This document shows, piece after piece, positions 3,487 to 56,356 of a stretch of DNA of 64,000 nt. The stretch lies in the NCBI RefSeq assembly GCF_009939295.1, contig NZ_WVIC01000022.1, positions 1 to 64,000 on the forward strand, given 5' to 3'. Made by a program: the position numbers and the translations under genes. Numbering within the stretch: the stretch's first letter is position 1; the number at the start of each line of letters is the position of its first letter. Below the pieces are notes generated by a model. That model searched no databases, was not told where the DNA came from, and saw only the letters and a list, made by a program, of their open reading frames with translations. This stretch comes from Petrachloros mirabilis ULC683. GTDB taxonomy: Bacteria > Cyanobacteriota > Cyanobacteriia > Thermosynechococcales > Thermosynechococcaceae.

Positions 3487-3594
3487 TATAGCGGTTTACA
3501 GATTAATGGAGTACATGGGGTGCAGGGGGCAGTGCCCCCTGCGTGGGGGTTCCACCCCCACACCCCGTACCTCACTCAGGTGAGAACCGCTATA
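3487..3594. repeat. 108-bp inverted-repeat element, copy A
   Basis: Begins TATAGCGGTTTACAG and ends GAACCGCTATA, giving ~11-bp terminal inverted repeats. Two internal perfect hairpins are visible: GGGGGCAGTGCCCCC and TGGGGGTTCCACCCCCA. The same element, also 108 bp, occurs at 13898, 44158 and 56249. This copy touches the ligA stop codon at 3595-3597. It encodes no protein of its own and looks like a non-autonomous (MITE-like) element. Confidence 0.9.
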
Positions 3595-5754
<2,160 letters not shown>

Positions 5755-5804
5755 TTATTTAACGAAGTGTTACATTATTGTTACAGAAGTTCACAGAGGC
5801 CATT

Positions 5805-6149
5805 ATGACTTACTCTCCTGCCATCTCTCCTGATTTTGTCTCTATTGCTCAAGACCTAGGTATTCATCGTAGTTCTAAAGCCAAGTCTGGCTTCAGCGAT
5901 GGGTCTGAGCTAGTTCCGGCTGAGGCTGGTTTGCGAATGCAACGTGAAGGAGCCAGTTTCCTGCGCCGTCCCGCACTGAATGGGGCAACCGTTGATCAAG
6001 AAGGCTTGACCAACAACTATGCGGTTGAGCCGAACATGTACTTTGCTTCTTTCCCAACACCAGACGAAGCTCGCCGCTACGTAATTCAAGGGGCGGCAGC
6101 AGCTCTGTTTATCGTGAGTTTGATTGTGACATCTGTGGCAGTCAGCTAA
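5805..6149 (+). CDS. Small single-helix protein resembling the Ssl1498/light-harvesting-like family
   Basis: A 114-residue protein from the Met at 5805 (preceded by AGAGG). The last ~45 residues, with NNYAVEP, a Pro-rich link and one C-terminal transmembrane helix ending SVAVS, resemble the cyanobacterial Ssl1498 type of small light-harvesting-like proteins, which usually have only ~60 residues. The N-terminal ~65 residues are extra and Ser/Ala-rich. Function is not established; a thylakoid location is likely. It is transcribed divergently from ligA. Confidence 0.6.
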   Translation: MTYSPAISPDFVSIAQDLGIHRSSKAKSGFSDGSELVPAEAGLRMQREGASFLRRPALNGATVDQEGLTNNYAVEPNMYFASFPTPDEARRYVIQGAAAALFIVSLIVTSVAVS

Positions 6150-6180
6150 AAGGCTGATCCTAGAACCAACGTGAATTTAT

Positions 6181-6390
6181 GGCGATGGCCATTGCGCTTA
6201 GGACATCAGCCCCTCCCAATGTCAACCCTAGGACGGCTCCATAGGGGTATAGCCATCGCCACCATGCTGCAAATTACGGCCTAATCGTTCTGGCGATGGC
6301 TATAACAACTTATCCACCCTCACCCCCTAATGTTCCGTCGGGAAAACTTTGAGAGGCATAGGCTCATCAAAATTTAACCCGCCTCAAATC
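6181..6390. repeat. Inverted repeats after the small membrane protein gene
   Basis: TATAGCCATCGCC (6248-6260) and GGCGATGGCTATA (6291-6303) are perfect 13-bp inverted partners; a third partial copy GGCGATGGC lies at 6181. A second block (6326-6380) is the inverted, diverged copy of the hairpin repeat at 12991-13046, sharing the strings TTCCGTCGGGAAAA-like and AAATTTAACCC. No gene is seen in 6150-6396. Confidence 0.6.
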
Positions 6391-6396
6391 GCTCAT

Positions 6397-8454
6397 CTAG
6401 CGGGACTGACTACCTTGCACTTGCTGCTGAAGTTGAGTTATATCCCCTGCGGGTTCTTGGCACGCGAGCCCCTGACAGACTAGGCCGATGGCATCTGTGG
6501 GCAAATCGTTACTCACCTGCATCACCACCGTAGGCCAATAAAACTCACGCCCCCAAGCCCGAATGTGGTCAACTGAGGTGCGAATTAAGGTGTGGTGTTG
6601 GAACCAATCGAGAGCAGCAAAAAGGCTGGGGCAGGCCGTAGGTGAAGACTGCATCGCCTGACCAAAGGTTTCAAGAGCCTGTTGCCCTCGCTCCAAATAG
6701 GTCAAGTCTTCGCAGAGCAACGCCAGACGCACCAAGTTGGTGATTGCCACCCCATTAGCGGATGGCGTGGCATTGTCGAGCCAACTGCGCTCTCGGATCA
6801 GCAACTCACCTTCGGGGGTGCTGGTGGCGTTGTAGTAGCCGCCGTCCGCAATCGCCCAGAGTTGGTGATCAAATTCAGCTTGCACTTGGCTGGCGGACTG
6901 TAGCCAGCGTTGGGCAGTTTCCGGGTCACCGTCGCTAAGGCTGGCTTGATGTAAATCTAAGAGTGCCTTAATGAAGAGGGCATAGTCCTCAGACTGAGCC
7001 AAAACTACAGCTTGACCGTCGTAGTTGAGGCGGTAGAACTGATCTTGGTGCCATTGATGGGACAAAATAAAGTCAGCGGCCTGGCGCGCCAAGGCAAGGT
7101 AGTGGGTGTTCTCCCAGACAGTGGCAGCCCGAGCCAGTCCCGAGATCATGAGGCTGTTCCAAGCGACAATCATTTTGGTGTCGGTGACCGGGGGAATTCG
7201 CCCTGGCCATGGGTGGGTTTTGGCAGCCTGGTTGTTCCGAGCAGGCGGAAAGGGGGTTTCTGGATCTAGGTCACCGTAACGTAGGGTAAAGAGCTTGGCG
7301 CAGGCTGTTTCGACGGGTTCGGGTAATGGGCCAGGTGTTCGTCGCTGCAAAACGGTCAAGCCAGCTTCAAAGTTGCCCTCGGGTTTGAGATAAAAGCACT
7401 CGGCCAAAGCCCTTTGCTGATCCGGTGTGAGATGTTGCTCAAGGTCATCCGCTGTCCAGCAATAGAAGCGTCCTTCTTCGGGCTCAGCATCGTCAGCAGA
7501 GATAAAGCTGTCGGCATCCTGGGCGGCGTAGAAATAGCCTTCAGGGGCGCTCATCTCTCGCTGCAACCAGGATACGGTACCGGAGACCGCACGTTCAAAG
7601 GCTGGCTCATGGATCCCTGCGCTCCAGAGGTTGGCCAGATATTCCATAATCTGGCCGTTGTCGTAGAGCATCTTTTCAAAGTGAGGCACCGTCCACTGCG
7701 GATCGACTGTGTAGCGATGAAACCCTCCGGCCACATGGTCATAGATGCCGCCCAAGGCCAAATCCAGCCCTCGTTGCTCACAGACCTCCGAGGGTGCATC
7801 GGACTGAAGGCGACTCCCCTGAAGTGCGATCGCAGCATAGGGAATCATGGGAAAACTGGGGCCATAGCTGCTGCGCCCCACCACAGCAGTATTTTGCTCA
7901 ATGCCCTGCCGGAGCAGCTCGGGGTCAATCTTGGACACAGGAGCCAACTCAGTGGTGCTGCGGAGATACCCAAACAACTTTTGCTTCTGGGTATCCAGCT
8001 TCTCCTTTTCCGTGTCATAGAAGCCGCGAATCGCCTGGAGAACTTGCAAAAAGCCAGGGCGTCCGTAGCGCGGCTCAATGGGGAAATAGGTGCCCCCATA
8101 AAACGGCACGCGATCGCCAGGGGTCAAAAATACATTCATGGGCCAGCCCCCCTGCCCCGTCATGGCCTGCACCGCCTGCATGTAAATGCTATCAATGTCG
8201 GGGCGCTCTTCACGATCCACTTTGATGGGTAAGAAGTTAGCATTCATATAGGCAGCAATCTCTAGATCAGAGAAAGCCTCCCCCTCCATGACCGTGCACC
8301 AGTGACAACTTGAATAGCCCACAGAGAGAAAAATTGGCTTATTTTCCTGGCAAGCTTGAGTCAACGCGTCTTCACACCAGGGCCACCAATCAATAGGGTT
8401 TTCAGCGTGTTTTCGCAAGTAGAGACTTTGGGCACTCGCCAATCGATTCGTCAT
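6397..8454 (-). CDS. Thioredoxin-domain protein of the DUF255 / YyaL / SPATA20 family
   Basis: About 685 residues from the Met at 8454 (MTNRLASAQSLYLRKHAENP), which is where this family normally starts; an upstream Met at 8481 is also possible and neither has a clear ribosome site. N-terminal thioredoxin-like domain with the CxxC-type motif SSCHWCTVM, followed by a long (alpha/alpha)6-barrel region related to N-acylglucosamine epimerase and cellulase folds. The family is widespread and highly conserved but its substrate is unknown. Divergent from the next gene by ~85 bp. Confidence 0.88.
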   Translation of the reverse strand: MTNRLASAQSLYLRKHAENPIDWWPWCEDALTQACQENKPIFLSVGYSSCHWCTVMEGEAFSDLEIAAYMNANFLPIKVDREERPDIDSIYMQAVQAMTGQGGWPMNVFLTPGDRVPFYGGTYFPIEPRYGRPGFLQVLQAIRGFYDTEKEKLDTQKQKLFGYLRSTTELAPVSKIDPELLRQGIEQNTAVVGRSSYGPSFPMIPYAAIALQGSRLQSDAPSEVCEQRGLDLALGGIYDHVAGGFHRYTVDPQWTVPHFEKMLYDNGQIMEYLANLWSAGIHEPAFERAVSGTVSWLQREMSAPEGYFYAAQDADSFISADDAEPEEGRFYCWTADDLEQHLTPDQQRALAECFYLKPEGNFEAGLTVLQRRTPGPLPEPVETACAKLFTLRYGDLDPETPFPPARNNQAAKTHPWPGRIPPVTDTKMIVAWNSLMISGLARAATVWENTHYLALARQAADFILSHQWHQDQFYRLNYDGQAVVLAQSEDYALFIKALLDLHQASLSDGDPETAQRWLQSASQVQAEFDHQLWAIADGGYYNATSTPEGELLIRERSWLDNATPSANGVAITNLVRLALLCEDLTYLERGQQALETFGQAMQSSPTACPSLFAALDWFQHHTLIRTSVDHIRAWGREFYWPTVVMQVSNDLPTDAIGLVCQGLACQEPAGDITQLQQQVQGSQSR

Positions 8455-8538
8455 TTTTGTATTCAGAAACCGGGCAATCATTGTGTATCCAGTGTATCGG
8501 TAAAGAGAAGCTCTTTTTTTGGTTGACTTGAGGTAATT

Positions 8539-9150
8539 ATGCTGACCCAACTTGTCCGACCTATGGTCAGAACCCAATTGCGCCTGCTGGCAAGCTGTCA
8601 GGCGACCCACCCCACCCTGGTTTCTACGATCTGCCAATGGCTGGGCTTTTTAGGCGTCCAAGCGCAAGTCAATCAGCTTCAGGCACAGTCTGAAAACATT
8701 CAGGTCTCGCTGACCGTAGCCAAGCCCGATGCCTGTGACCCCCAAGACTGGGAGAAAATCCTTAATAACTTGGGGCAAACCACCGCTGCCCAGCAAACCC
8801 AAACAGGTGTCACCCATCTCAACACAGCTCAGCAGCGCACCTTTGTGCGTTTGATGGCCTATTTATTACAAGTAGGCCATCCTCAGCAACATGTGGACTG
8901 GAGCCAAGTCGCCCCCAAATTACAGTCTATGGATCTTGCTCCCGCAACCCTGACGGCTCTCCAGTCGGCTCTGCGAATCCCCCAATCTTTGGAATTATTG
9001 GTGGAAGAATTGGATCCAGATTTGGCTGCGATCGCACTCCCTCAAGCTGTCAGCATTGCCCTGATGGATCGCCAGGTCAATCCCTGCGAAGCCCAAGTGC
9101 TCTCAGCCCTGTTTCAGCTCATCAAACCCGAGCCCTCCGTTCCGAGCTAA
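8539..9150 (+). CDS. Hypothetical cytosolic protein
   Basis: A 203-residue protein, mainly helical, without signal peptide, membrane helix or recognisable motif. It is Gln/Leu rich in the first half and ends with a helical segment (IALMDRQVNPCEAQVLSALF) that has the feel of a small helical-bundle domain. Codon use matches the neighbours, so it is very likely a real gene. The position between the DUF255 gene and fbaA gives no hint of function. Confidence 0.7.
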   Translation: MLTQLVRPMVRTQLRLLASCQATHPTLVSTICQWLGFLGVQAQVNQLQAQSENIQVSLTVAKPDACDPQDWEKILNNLGQTTAAQQTQTGVTHLNTAQQRTFVRLMAYLLQVGHPQQHVDWSQVAPKLQSMDLAPATLTALQSALRIPQSLELLVEELDPDLAAIALPQAVSIALMDRQVNPCEAQVLSALFQLIKPEPSVPS

Positions 9151-13485: not shown

Positions 13486-13878
13486 ATGACAACCTTAAAC
13501 CCAAAAACTTCAGCTAAACTTTTGCTGATTTTAGCCAGCCTTATCCCAGCTATTTTAGTAGCAGGAGAGGGATTTGCCATGTCTTCTCCGACATTGCATT
13601 CAGATCAGGCTGTCAATTCGGAACCTACCTTGCAATTTTCAGAATATACAGCAACAAAATTGCAATATTTTGATATGGAGTCCCAGCCATCAGCAAAACC
13701 TTTTGTTCGAGAAAATGGTCCTAGTTTTGTACGTAGTATTAAACCTTTTGTTCGAGAGAATGGCCCCAGTTTTGTGCGTCGTGCTCAAGCAGATGGACCT
13801 AATGTTCCCTATGCTGCATCGCCACTCTCAGCTGTCGAGATCTTTGCTGCACTTCAAGAGCAGGTAGATTTTGGCTAA
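13486..13878 (+). CDS. Candidate RiPP precursor with two near-identical core repeats
   Basis: A 130-residue protein from the Met at 13486 (AAAGGA nine bases before; an in-frame Met at 13426 is possible but weaker). Residues 10-31 form a signal-peptide-like hydrophobic stretch, 32-70 a polar linker, then KPFVRENGPSFVR at 71-83 and again at 86-98 (15-residue period), and a 30-residue tail ending QEQVDFG. Each repeat contains two F-V-R tripeptides. A radical SAM enzyme gene follows on the same strand, separated by the 108-bp element. A signal-like leader, repeated aromatic-containing cores and an adjacent maturase fit a radical-SAM-modified peptide of the cyclophane type; this is inference. I do not recognise the exact family. 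Confidence 0.72.
   Translation: MTTLNPKTSAKLLLILASLIPAILVAGEGFAMSSPTLHSDQAVNSEPTLQFSEYTATKLQYFDMESQPSAKPFVRENGPSFVRSIKPFVRENGPSFVRRAQADGPNVPYAASPLSAVEIFAALQEQVDFG
13696..13785 (+). repeat. 45-bp tandem repeat coding for the RiPP cores
   Basis: Two 45-bp units (13696-13740, 13741-13785) encode KPFVRENGPSFVR plus two variable residues (SI, RA). Most differences within the 13-residue core are silent third-position changes, which suggests selection on the peptide. Confidence 0.9.
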
Positions 13879-13897
13879 TCGTTAACATCTCAGGAGA

Positions 13898-14005
13898 TAT
13901 AGCGGTTTACAGATCAATGGAGTACATGGGGTGCAGGGGGCGCTGCCCCCTGCGTGGGGGTTCCACCCCCACACCCCCTACCCCACTCAGGTGAGAGCCG
14001 CAATA
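13898..14005. repeat. 108-bp inverted-repeat element, copy B
   Basis: Same element as at 3487, with the left end TATAGCGGTTTACAG intact and the right end changed to GAGCCGCAATA. The central hairpin reads GGGGGCGCTGCCCCC. It lies between the RiPP precursor stop (13878) and the maturase start (14082), and transcripts reading through would fold into a strong stem. Confidence 0.9.
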
Positions 14006-14081
14006 AGGTGATTTTGAAATGAAAAAACAAGACAAAATTCATCTTATCTCCGGAAAAATATTTATTATAAGGAGAAATTTC

Positions 14082-15269
14082 ATGTCAACTGAACCAAAAG
14101 TTACGGAAAAGAAAGTTGTAGATTTTGTCATCAAGACATCAAAATTTTGTAACCTTCGCTGTCGTTATTGCTATGAGTTTAATGATTTAGGCAACCGTGA
14201 AATGATCTCATCCACGCAGCTTGATCAAATGTATCATCATATTGCTGATTATTACGGTGCATTAGATCATCCCACAGAAATTAATTTTGTCTGGCACGGT
14301 GGAGAACCGCTAATCCATTCACCCGAATTTTACTGGAAAACCTTTGAAAGTCAAAAAGAAATTTTTAGAGGCCGATCAGTTTCTATCATAAATTCTGTCC
14401 AAACAAACCTCACAGTTTTAGATGAAGCCCGTCTTCAGTTATTAAAGACTGGATTTGATAGTGTTGGAGTTTCGCTCGATCTCTTTGGAGGACTCAGGGT
14501 AAATCAATCGGGGCGAGATTCTGTCGCGCTTGTTCTTAAGAATTTAGATCGGCTTCAGGCCAAAAAGATTCCCTTTGGTTGCATTACGGTTTTAACCCAA
14601 CTCAATCGCCCTTATATAGAAGCAATTTTTCGCTTCTATGAACAGATGGAAGTTTCATTCCGAATTTTGCCGCTGTTTAAGGGAGCCTTTGATAGCCAGC
14701 ATATTGGATTTGAAATAACACCTTATGAGGTATTAGAAACCTATAAAACCCTAGTTGATTTGTGGTTTGAAAGTGATCGCTTTGTCATGGTTCATCCCAT
14801 TGTGGAGCATATTGAACAAGCTTTGCGTCACCGTTGCGATCGCAGCCGTGTGACCCTTTACGATAAGCGCCAATGGGAGTCCATTTTCTTGGTCAATACA
14901 GATGGGCAAATCTACAGCTATGCGGATGCTTATGCAGGGCCAAGCCAAGGCAATATTTTTACCACCCCAATGGAAACCTTGCTGAATGGAAAAGCCCATC
15001 AACTCGTAATTCAAGCAGCTGAAGATCGATTGCGCTCAACCTGTCATCACTGTCCCTACTTGGGAAGTTGTGATGGCTATCCCGTGGCAGAGGGAAGTGT
15101 TGAGTACAACGAGTATGACGAACAGGGGGCAATTCGTTGCATTGTGACCCATGGGATTCTCCGCCACATAGAAGAGCGATTAGATCAAGCAAGACAAGCC
15201 GGAATGGCAGAGCTCCCAACAGAGCACTTTACCCATTGGGAAAAATCTGCCCTTAGCTGTGCGGTGTAA
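14082..15269 (+). CDS. Radical SAM peptide maturase (candidate cyclophane-forming, SPASM-like)
   Basis: 395 residues from the Met at 14082, preceded by AAGGAG at good spacing. The radical SAM cluster motif is CNLRCRYC (Cys 23, 27, 30), followed by the SAM-binding WHGGEP (71-76) and VGVSLDLFGGLRV (128-140). The C-terminus has Cys 321, 324, 330 and 353 (CHHC-x5-C), a partial SPASM-type auxiliary cluster site; the usual next Cys after C330 is missing (CDGYPV). The VSLD-FG-RV / FG-ITVLT pattern resembles maturases that crosslink Phe/Tyr side chains in multi-core peptides, but this is from memory. It likely acts on the precursor at 13486. AT-rich codon use suggests acquisition by transfer. Confidence 0.85.
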   Translation: MSTEPKVTEKKVVDFVIKTSKFCNLRCRYCYEFNDLGNREMISSTQLDQMYHHIADYYGALDHPTEINFVWHGGEPLIHSPEFYWKTFESQKEIFRGRSVSIINSVQTNLTVLDEARLQLLKTGFDSVGVSLDLFGGLRVNQSGRDSVALVLKNLDRLQAKKIPFGCITVLTQLNRPYIEAIFRFYEQMEVSFRILPLFKGAFDSQHIGFEITPYEVLETYKTLVDLWFESDRFVMVHPIVEHIEQALRHRCDRSRVTLYDKRQWESIFLVNTDGQIYSYADAYAGPSQGNIFTTPMETLLNGKAHQLVIQAAEDRLRSTCHHCPYLGSCDGYPVAEGSVEYNEYDEQGAIRCIVTHGILRHIEERLDQARQAGMAELPTEHFTHWEKSALSCAV

Positions 15270-56248: not shown

Positions 56249-56356
56249 TATAGCGGTTTACAGATCAATGGAGTACATGGGGTGCAGGGGGCAGTGCCCC
56301 CTGCGTGGGGGTTCGACCCCCACACCCCGTACCTCACTCAGGTGAGAACCGCTATA
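56249..56356. repeat. 108-bp inverted-repeat element, copy D
   Basis: Left TATAGCGGTTTACAG, right GAACCGCTATA, identical in layout to copies A-C; the inner hairpin reads GGGGGTTCGACCCCC. Intergenic between the DUF5340 gene and the coiled-coil gene. Confidence 0.92.

Follow-up and report, generated by a model that had tools for sequence, protein, structure and literature searches.

A precursor peptide with a doubled core and its putative radical SAM maturase in Petrachloros mirabilis: a candidate triceptide-like operon

Two adjoining genes in the window

The stretch of Petrachloros mirabilis DNA analysed here (64,000 nt; hereafter, the window) holds a gene for a short, secreted-looking peptide followed on the same strand by one for a radical SAM protein. 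This arrangement raises the question of whether the two genes form a RiPP system and, if so, which bond the enzyme makes. A preliminary description had reported a 130-residue peptide carrying two copies of KPFVRENGPSFVR 15 residues apart and a 395-residue protein with a CNLRCRYC motif, and had read them as precursor and maturase. Both open reading frames were confirmed, as was the spacing of the two core copies (Table 1). The RiPP interpretation is well supported: an encoded precursor and a dedicated modifying enzyme, which are what a RiPP system generally consists of, were found to be conserved together, and the reading withstood the sequence-based refutation tests that were run. We further consider it probable that the pair is a two-gene operon making up to four Phe-Cβ(Arg) three-residue cyclophanes.

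Table 1. Features of the candidate system and of the intergenic region (positions in the window)
Feature	Position	Strand	Basis or remark
Precursor peptide gene, 130 aa	13486..13878	+	ORF, ATG start, AAGGAA-like ribosome site upstream
Signal-peptide-like leader, residues 1-31, end GEGFA	13486..13578	+	K residues, hydrophobic stretch, small terminal residue
Core copy 1, KPFVRENGPSFVR, residues 71-83	13696..13734	+	Candidate Phe73-Arg75 and Phe81-Arg83 crosslinks; F/W-X-polar pattern across cores
Core copy 2, KPFVRENGPSFVR, residues 86-98	13741..13779	+	Candidate Phe88-Arg90 and Phe96-Arg98 crosslinks; F/W-X-polar pattern across cores
C-terminal tag SAVEIFAAL, residues 115-123; candidate follower/recognition element	13828..13854	+	Shared by 18 of the 21 loci, under both types of leader
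72-bp G+C-rich palindromic interspersed repeat, outside the RiPP system proper	13919..13990	+	At least 41 genome copies, 89-100% identical
Radical SAM/SPASM-type maturase, 395 aa	14082..15269	+	Pfam Radical_SAM 51 bits; cyclophane/anSME models all below cut-off
CxxxCxxC radical SAM [4Fe-4S] motif CNLRCRYC (C23, C27, C30)	14148..14171	+	Invariant in family alignments
CX2CX5C...C (C321, C324, C330, C353), single auxiliary cluster AuxII	15042..15140	+	Invariant in close clade

The window precursor belonged to no NCBIfam family and gave only a weak, sub-threshold match in Pfam, and the maturase exceeded no curated NCBIfam cut-off, in line with the earlier remark that the core was not that of a recognised family. 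The precursor is homologous to the peptides encoded upstream of related maturases (36% identity to that of Hassallia). Its leader is signal-like, with no match to the Nif11-like model TIGR03798 or to any other in NCBIfam. The same leader architecture was seen in the other signal-type relatives, with AxA ends in many, and the sequence suggests that cleavage may follow the leader of the window precursor. The core (FVRENGPSFVR) contains no Gly runs, and so is not Gly-rich as in GrrA. The two core copies differ by four nucleotides in 13 codons, and all four changes are silent (nearly all had been described as such). Random single changes in these codons are silent in 24% of cases; four out of four would be expected by chance with a probability of ∼0.003, or ∼0.012 if only transitions are considered, indicating that the cores are under purifying selection.

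The precursor and maturase genes are separated by ∼200 nt that include a palindromic repeat, further copies of which lie at 3508-3579 and 56270-56341 of the window. Given the position of this repeat, co-transcription of the two genes, which it might affect, is not assured. Next to the pair, neither a transporter nor a peptidase gene was identified.

The ATG of the maturase gene is preceded by AAGGAG; a start at another ATG in the same frame, at 14019, would make the protein 21 aa longer. The C-terminus had been described as partly of SPASM type, which proved right and can now be made more precise: alignment to anSME showed AuxII to be kept and all four AuxI ligands to be missing. The cysteines are named here after what we take to be the AuxI and AuxII ligands of anSME. 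The same loss of AuxI, with AuxII kept, was found in nine genuine cyanobacterial GrrM enzymes. The best curated maturase model in NCBIfam was that of DynA (NF041298), with 154.7 bits against a cut-off of 450; the scores for anSME (TIGR03942), GrrM/OscB (TIGR04261) and YhhB were 133, 98 and 82 bits, against cut-offs of 349, 310 and 445, respectively. Since it falls far below every curated cut-off, the maturase is filed as a new triceptide-like subfamily and not as GrrM, that is, as a new subfamily within a known kind of RiPP and not as a new kind. The nearest solved sequences were those of anSME and then ChlB, and a fold comparison with the predicted structure, of mean pLDDT 73, gave the same result. 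An identity as a sulfatase maturase was dropped on account of the anSME score and the absence of the AuxI ligands, the anSME assignment requiring both AuxI and AuxII. No copy of the maturase was found on plasmid records.

Related loci, their leaders and their oxygenase partners

A single-sequence scan of cyanobacterial genomes returned no relatives of the maturase; these were found by an alignment scan. The close clade comprises 21 loci including the window, the other 20 encoding maturases 48-64% identical to that of the window and belonging to several cyanobacterial orders. Thirteen rows of the clade were aligned; in a tree, 22 maturase sequences from the 21 loci formed a fully supported clade (100/100), in which the window maturase grouped with those of G589 and G603 (94/86) inside a signal-leader clade (99/98). 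The preliminary description had proposed a search for conserved co-occurrence, and this was borne out: a short peptide is encoded on the same strand upstream of the maturase at all 21 loci, at a distance of 59-791 nt.

The pairing was also seen from the side of the precursor. A precursor profile run against 218 Nostocaceae-like genomes gave 12 strong full-length matches (E < 1e-11) in 11 genomes, and every one of the 12 adjoins a close-clade maturase. The probability of this pairing by chance is ∼1e-16, a value that is partly circular in that several profile seeds had been picked for their adjacency to a maturase; the matches in G433, G456 and G500, and one of the copies in G412, were not seeds. 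Had the precursors been ordinary secreted proteins, homologues without a maturase would have been anticipated, as noted earlier; no full-length homologue of this kind was found in the 218 genomes. The weaker matches align mainly over the signal-like leader and form part of other gene sets, and a search of 386 cyanobacterial genomes with the single precursor sequence gave two chance matches only (L002 and L003).

Another cyanobacterial peptide family, in L180-L187, L189 and L190, differs little in its signal-like leader. Where it was read, its core resembles KGKDASDKGKDxC. A 262-aa gene and then one more gene come after the peptide gene, and in L183 this pair had no match in Pfam or NCBIfam. 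This type of leader may serve several RiPP machineries. In L191 (1495-3075), a peptide with a similar leader precedes a Nitroreductase-family protein (Pfam, 54 bits).

Within the close clade, the leaders are of two unrelated types, a point that the preliminary description had missed along with the C-terminal SAV(D/E)xF tag and the oxygenase partner present in relatives. The precursor leader is signal-peptide-like at 16 loci and of Nif11 type at five (L020, L029, L031, L032 and L134); the latter were assigned with Pfam or NCBIfam for L020 (Pfam Nif11, 45 bits) and L032 (TIGR03798, 48.6 bits against a cut-off of 32.3), and by sequence similarity for the other three. The tag, with the consensus SA(V/L/A)(D/E/N/G)x(F/L), ends the precursor in 18 of the 21 loci, under both types of leader, the exceptions being L028, L029 and L031. 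The segment FVRE(N/G)GP is common to the signal-led window precursor and to the Nif11-led ones of L032 and L134. Among recurring cores, those under Nif11 leaders include FVREGGPPWVQNQPY in Nostoc paludosum and FVREGGPIFAQ in G545, and those under signal-like leaders include FVRENGPSFV in the window, FDNGPSFVQNQPY in Nostoc foliaceum and VDPGPSWVQNQPY in Hassallia. The variation in the core that was to be looked for is thus present: repeat number and sequence change, and the aromatic-X-polar (i,i+2) spacing is kept.

Several relatives have arrangements of their own. The precursor of L028 (3834-4304), which lacks the SAV tag, contains three YPWGR/YPWDR units and a tail of GSPIPN repeats. L020, the sole other clade member found in the order to which the window belongs, has two tandem maturase-oxygenase fusions with one common Nif11-led precursor (4172-8544). 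L144 (3491-4195) has a shortened close-clade maturase, a decayed copy with no recognisable precursor. A sister clade of maturases, with ∼30% identity and long signal-like precursors of its own, was found in L021 (3031-8951), L022-L026 and L145-L147; one of its members, G054, combines two near-identical maturases with five precursor genes placed around them.

At 11 of the 21 loci, the window not being one of them, the maturase gene is followed by, or fused with, one for a 290-320 aa MicC-like 2-oxoglutarate oxygenase (fused in both copies of G296). It is homologous to MicC, an alpha-ketoglutarate-dependent non-heme iron oxygenase (PDB 9vkm; E = 2.8e-37), and the HxD...H motif is invariant; the assignment is by sequence similarity to 9vkm, the AlphaFold model having a mean pLDDT of 35. 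The same oxygenase family follows genuine GrrM/OscB enzymes in L201 (on a Nostoc plasmid; GrrM 437 bits), G111 (539.5 bits) and G284 (453 bits), which ties the window clade to cyclophane chemistry by association. The oxygenase is absent from the loci of the two nearest relatives of the window, and none was detected in the genome of the window at the threshold used, with a query whose positive control came from relatives, where it does find the gene. In G039, G129 and G354 the oxygenase has no radical SAM neighbour in the stretch read. In three genomes (L213, L214 and L215) a MicC-like oxygenase, likewise with no radical SAM gene, lies between a 220-aa protein ending in CTHCTHCTH, possibly another peptide substrate, and a TPR-like protein. 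JmjC_2-domain genes lie downstream of the oxygenase in the Nif11-led L032 (7212-9333, two similar genes in tandem) and L134 (5576-6781).

The i,i+2 pattern and the bond it suggests

In 14 cores, taken after the removal of near-duplicates and with boundaries set by eye, the position two residues after a Phe or Trp is occupied by R, K, Q, N, D or E in 47 of 54 cases (87%), against 30-44% at any other offset between -4 and +5. In 5000 within-core shuffles this count was never reached; the p-value is optimistic given that the core sequences are related, but composition does not account for the difference from the other offsets. When the core boundaries were set automatically by rule, the count was 54 of 72; other offsets then gave 31-40%, while leaders remained at background (29%). 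The middle position is not fixed (V, R, K, I, T, S, G, D or A), Val being the commonest residue. Some aromatic sites in L019, L020, L027 and L034 read Phe-x-Leu, so not every such site need be used.

Published 3-CyFEs link an aromatic ring to the Cβ of the residue at i,i+2 (PMC11002830). Arg is known as the third residue, in the Trp-Arg linkage of XncB and the Tyr-Arg and His-Arg linkages of YhhB; Phe-Arg is absent from the linkages listed in that review (PMC11002830). Two elements of a triceptide system are present in the window, namely a radical SAM/SPASM-type enzyme encoded with its precursor and a core that keeps aromatic-X-X with a bondable Cβ at i+2. An aromatic ring at i with such a Cβ at i+2 is what enzymes of the XncB/OscB kind work on, and the aromatic-X-polar pattern is accordingly the one expected of substrates for i,i+2 cyclophanes; the pattern characterises the substrates and is not a proof of the bond.

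According to the mechanism proposed, the maturase, with its one auxiliary cluster, would bind the precursor, probably via the leader and/or the tag, generate a 5′-deoxyadenosyl radical and abstract a hydrogen from the Cβ of each core Arg. The Arg Cβ would be coupled with the aromatic ring of the Phe that precedes it by two residues, forming up to four cyclophanes (the residue pairs in Table 1), each with a loss of 2 Da. The leader, and perhaps the tag, would then be removed and the product exported, possibly as a growth-inhibiting or signalling peptide. A more specific version of this reading, possible but rather doubtful, is that the clade forms a triceptide subfamily of its own: its enzyme would recognise the SAV(D/E)xF follower instead of the leader, so that signal-like and Nif11 leaders could replace each other on a single type of core, and the doubled core would receive four Phe-Cβ(Arg) cyclophanes.

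The maturase shares only ∼22% identity with a GrrM, and radical SAM/SPASM relatives as distant as this also make ethers (DarE), thioethers or epimers, which counts against the cyclophane reading. So does TvgB, a radical SAM enzyme at a comparable distance that makes cyclopropanes (PMC9062424). The pair might thus be a genuine RiPP system with another chemistry on the same motifs: a Phe-Arg link via N or O, epimerisation, or cyclopropanation of Val as by TvgB. The maturase is about equally distant from several radical SAM families of differing chemistry; the chemistry of the dynobactin and darobactin maturases, whose models gave some of the better scores, extends to C-N and C-O bonds (PMC11002830), and TvgB, which modifies Val, the commonest middle residue here, pairs with a 2-oxoglutarate oxygenase (PMC9062424). 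It is the middle residue, however, that varies in the cores, which retain the Phe or Trp and, at +2, the polar residue; the oxygenase partner, moreover, is common to GrrM-type cyclophane loci. We therefore regard another chemistry as unlikely, albeit the most serious competitor of the cyclophane reading.

It is very improbable that the pair simply belongs to the GrrM/OscB (GrrA) system as a divergent representative. In favour of this are a leader of signal-like type and an Aro-X-polar core, both seen in the GrrA of L193, together with the AuxII-only cysteines and the shared oxygenase partner, but real cyanobacterial GrrMs score 437-633 bits with TIGR04261, far above the window maturase, which is only ∼22% identical to a GrrM; further, the invariant C167 and the SAV(D/E)xF tag are clade-specific in the comparison made, and the core is not Gly-rich. 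Membership was dropped. Finally, an ordinary secreted repeat protein lying by accident beside an unrelated radical SAM enzyme, such as a sulfatase maturase, is hardly credible: the signal-peptide-like N-terminus and anSME as the closest solved structure would fit, but the family-wide pairing, the common tag, the purifying selection on the cores, the low anSME score and the loss of the AuxI ligands all go against it.

Relation to known systems

The window pair and its relatives add an uncurated, genome-supported family to the radical SAM crosslinked peptides. The cyclophane reading makes a sharp prediction, namely that each F-V-R, at no more than four sites, loses 2 Da. The system would also offer a Phe-Arg substrate. 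The same core type and tag on two unrelated leaders provide a natural system in which leader and follower recognition can be separated, and the loci with and without the 2-oxoglutarate oxygenase form a natural set from which the oxygenase step can be read by comparison. Literature searches on MicC/9vkm, Nif11-radical SAM systems and cyanobacterial cyclophanes returned no account of the family; the main surveys cited in PMC11002830 lay outside this scope, and an earlier unnamed mention is possible.

Among known systems, MicC (PDB 9vkm) is a homologue of the third gene of 11 relatives, a gene absent from the genome of the window at the threshold used. GrrM/OscB-GrrA (TIGR04261) shares with the window an AuxII-only radical SAM enzyme, a signal-like leader, an Aro-X-polar core, a cyanobacterial host and, at some loci, a MicC-like oxygenase; it differs in the Gly-rich FxN/WxN repeats of GrrA, which has no SAV(D/E)xF tag, and no Nif11 leaders were seen in the GrrM loci looked at. 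DynA (NF041298), the best-scoring curated model, and DarE also crosslink aromatic residues of a peptide, but the DynA cut-off is not reached and the cores and precursors are unrelated to those of the window. XncB and YhhB, both 3-CyFEs, have published partners that include Arg as the third residue (PMC11002830), although the YhhB model scores the window maturase far below its cut-off. TvgABC, which makes poly-cyclopropylglycine, resembles the system in its repeat core, its radical SAM enzyme of an anSME-like subfamily and, as in the relatives, a clustered 2-oxoglutarate oxygenase; it comes from Halomonas, and its TVGG core is altered at Val (PMC9062424).
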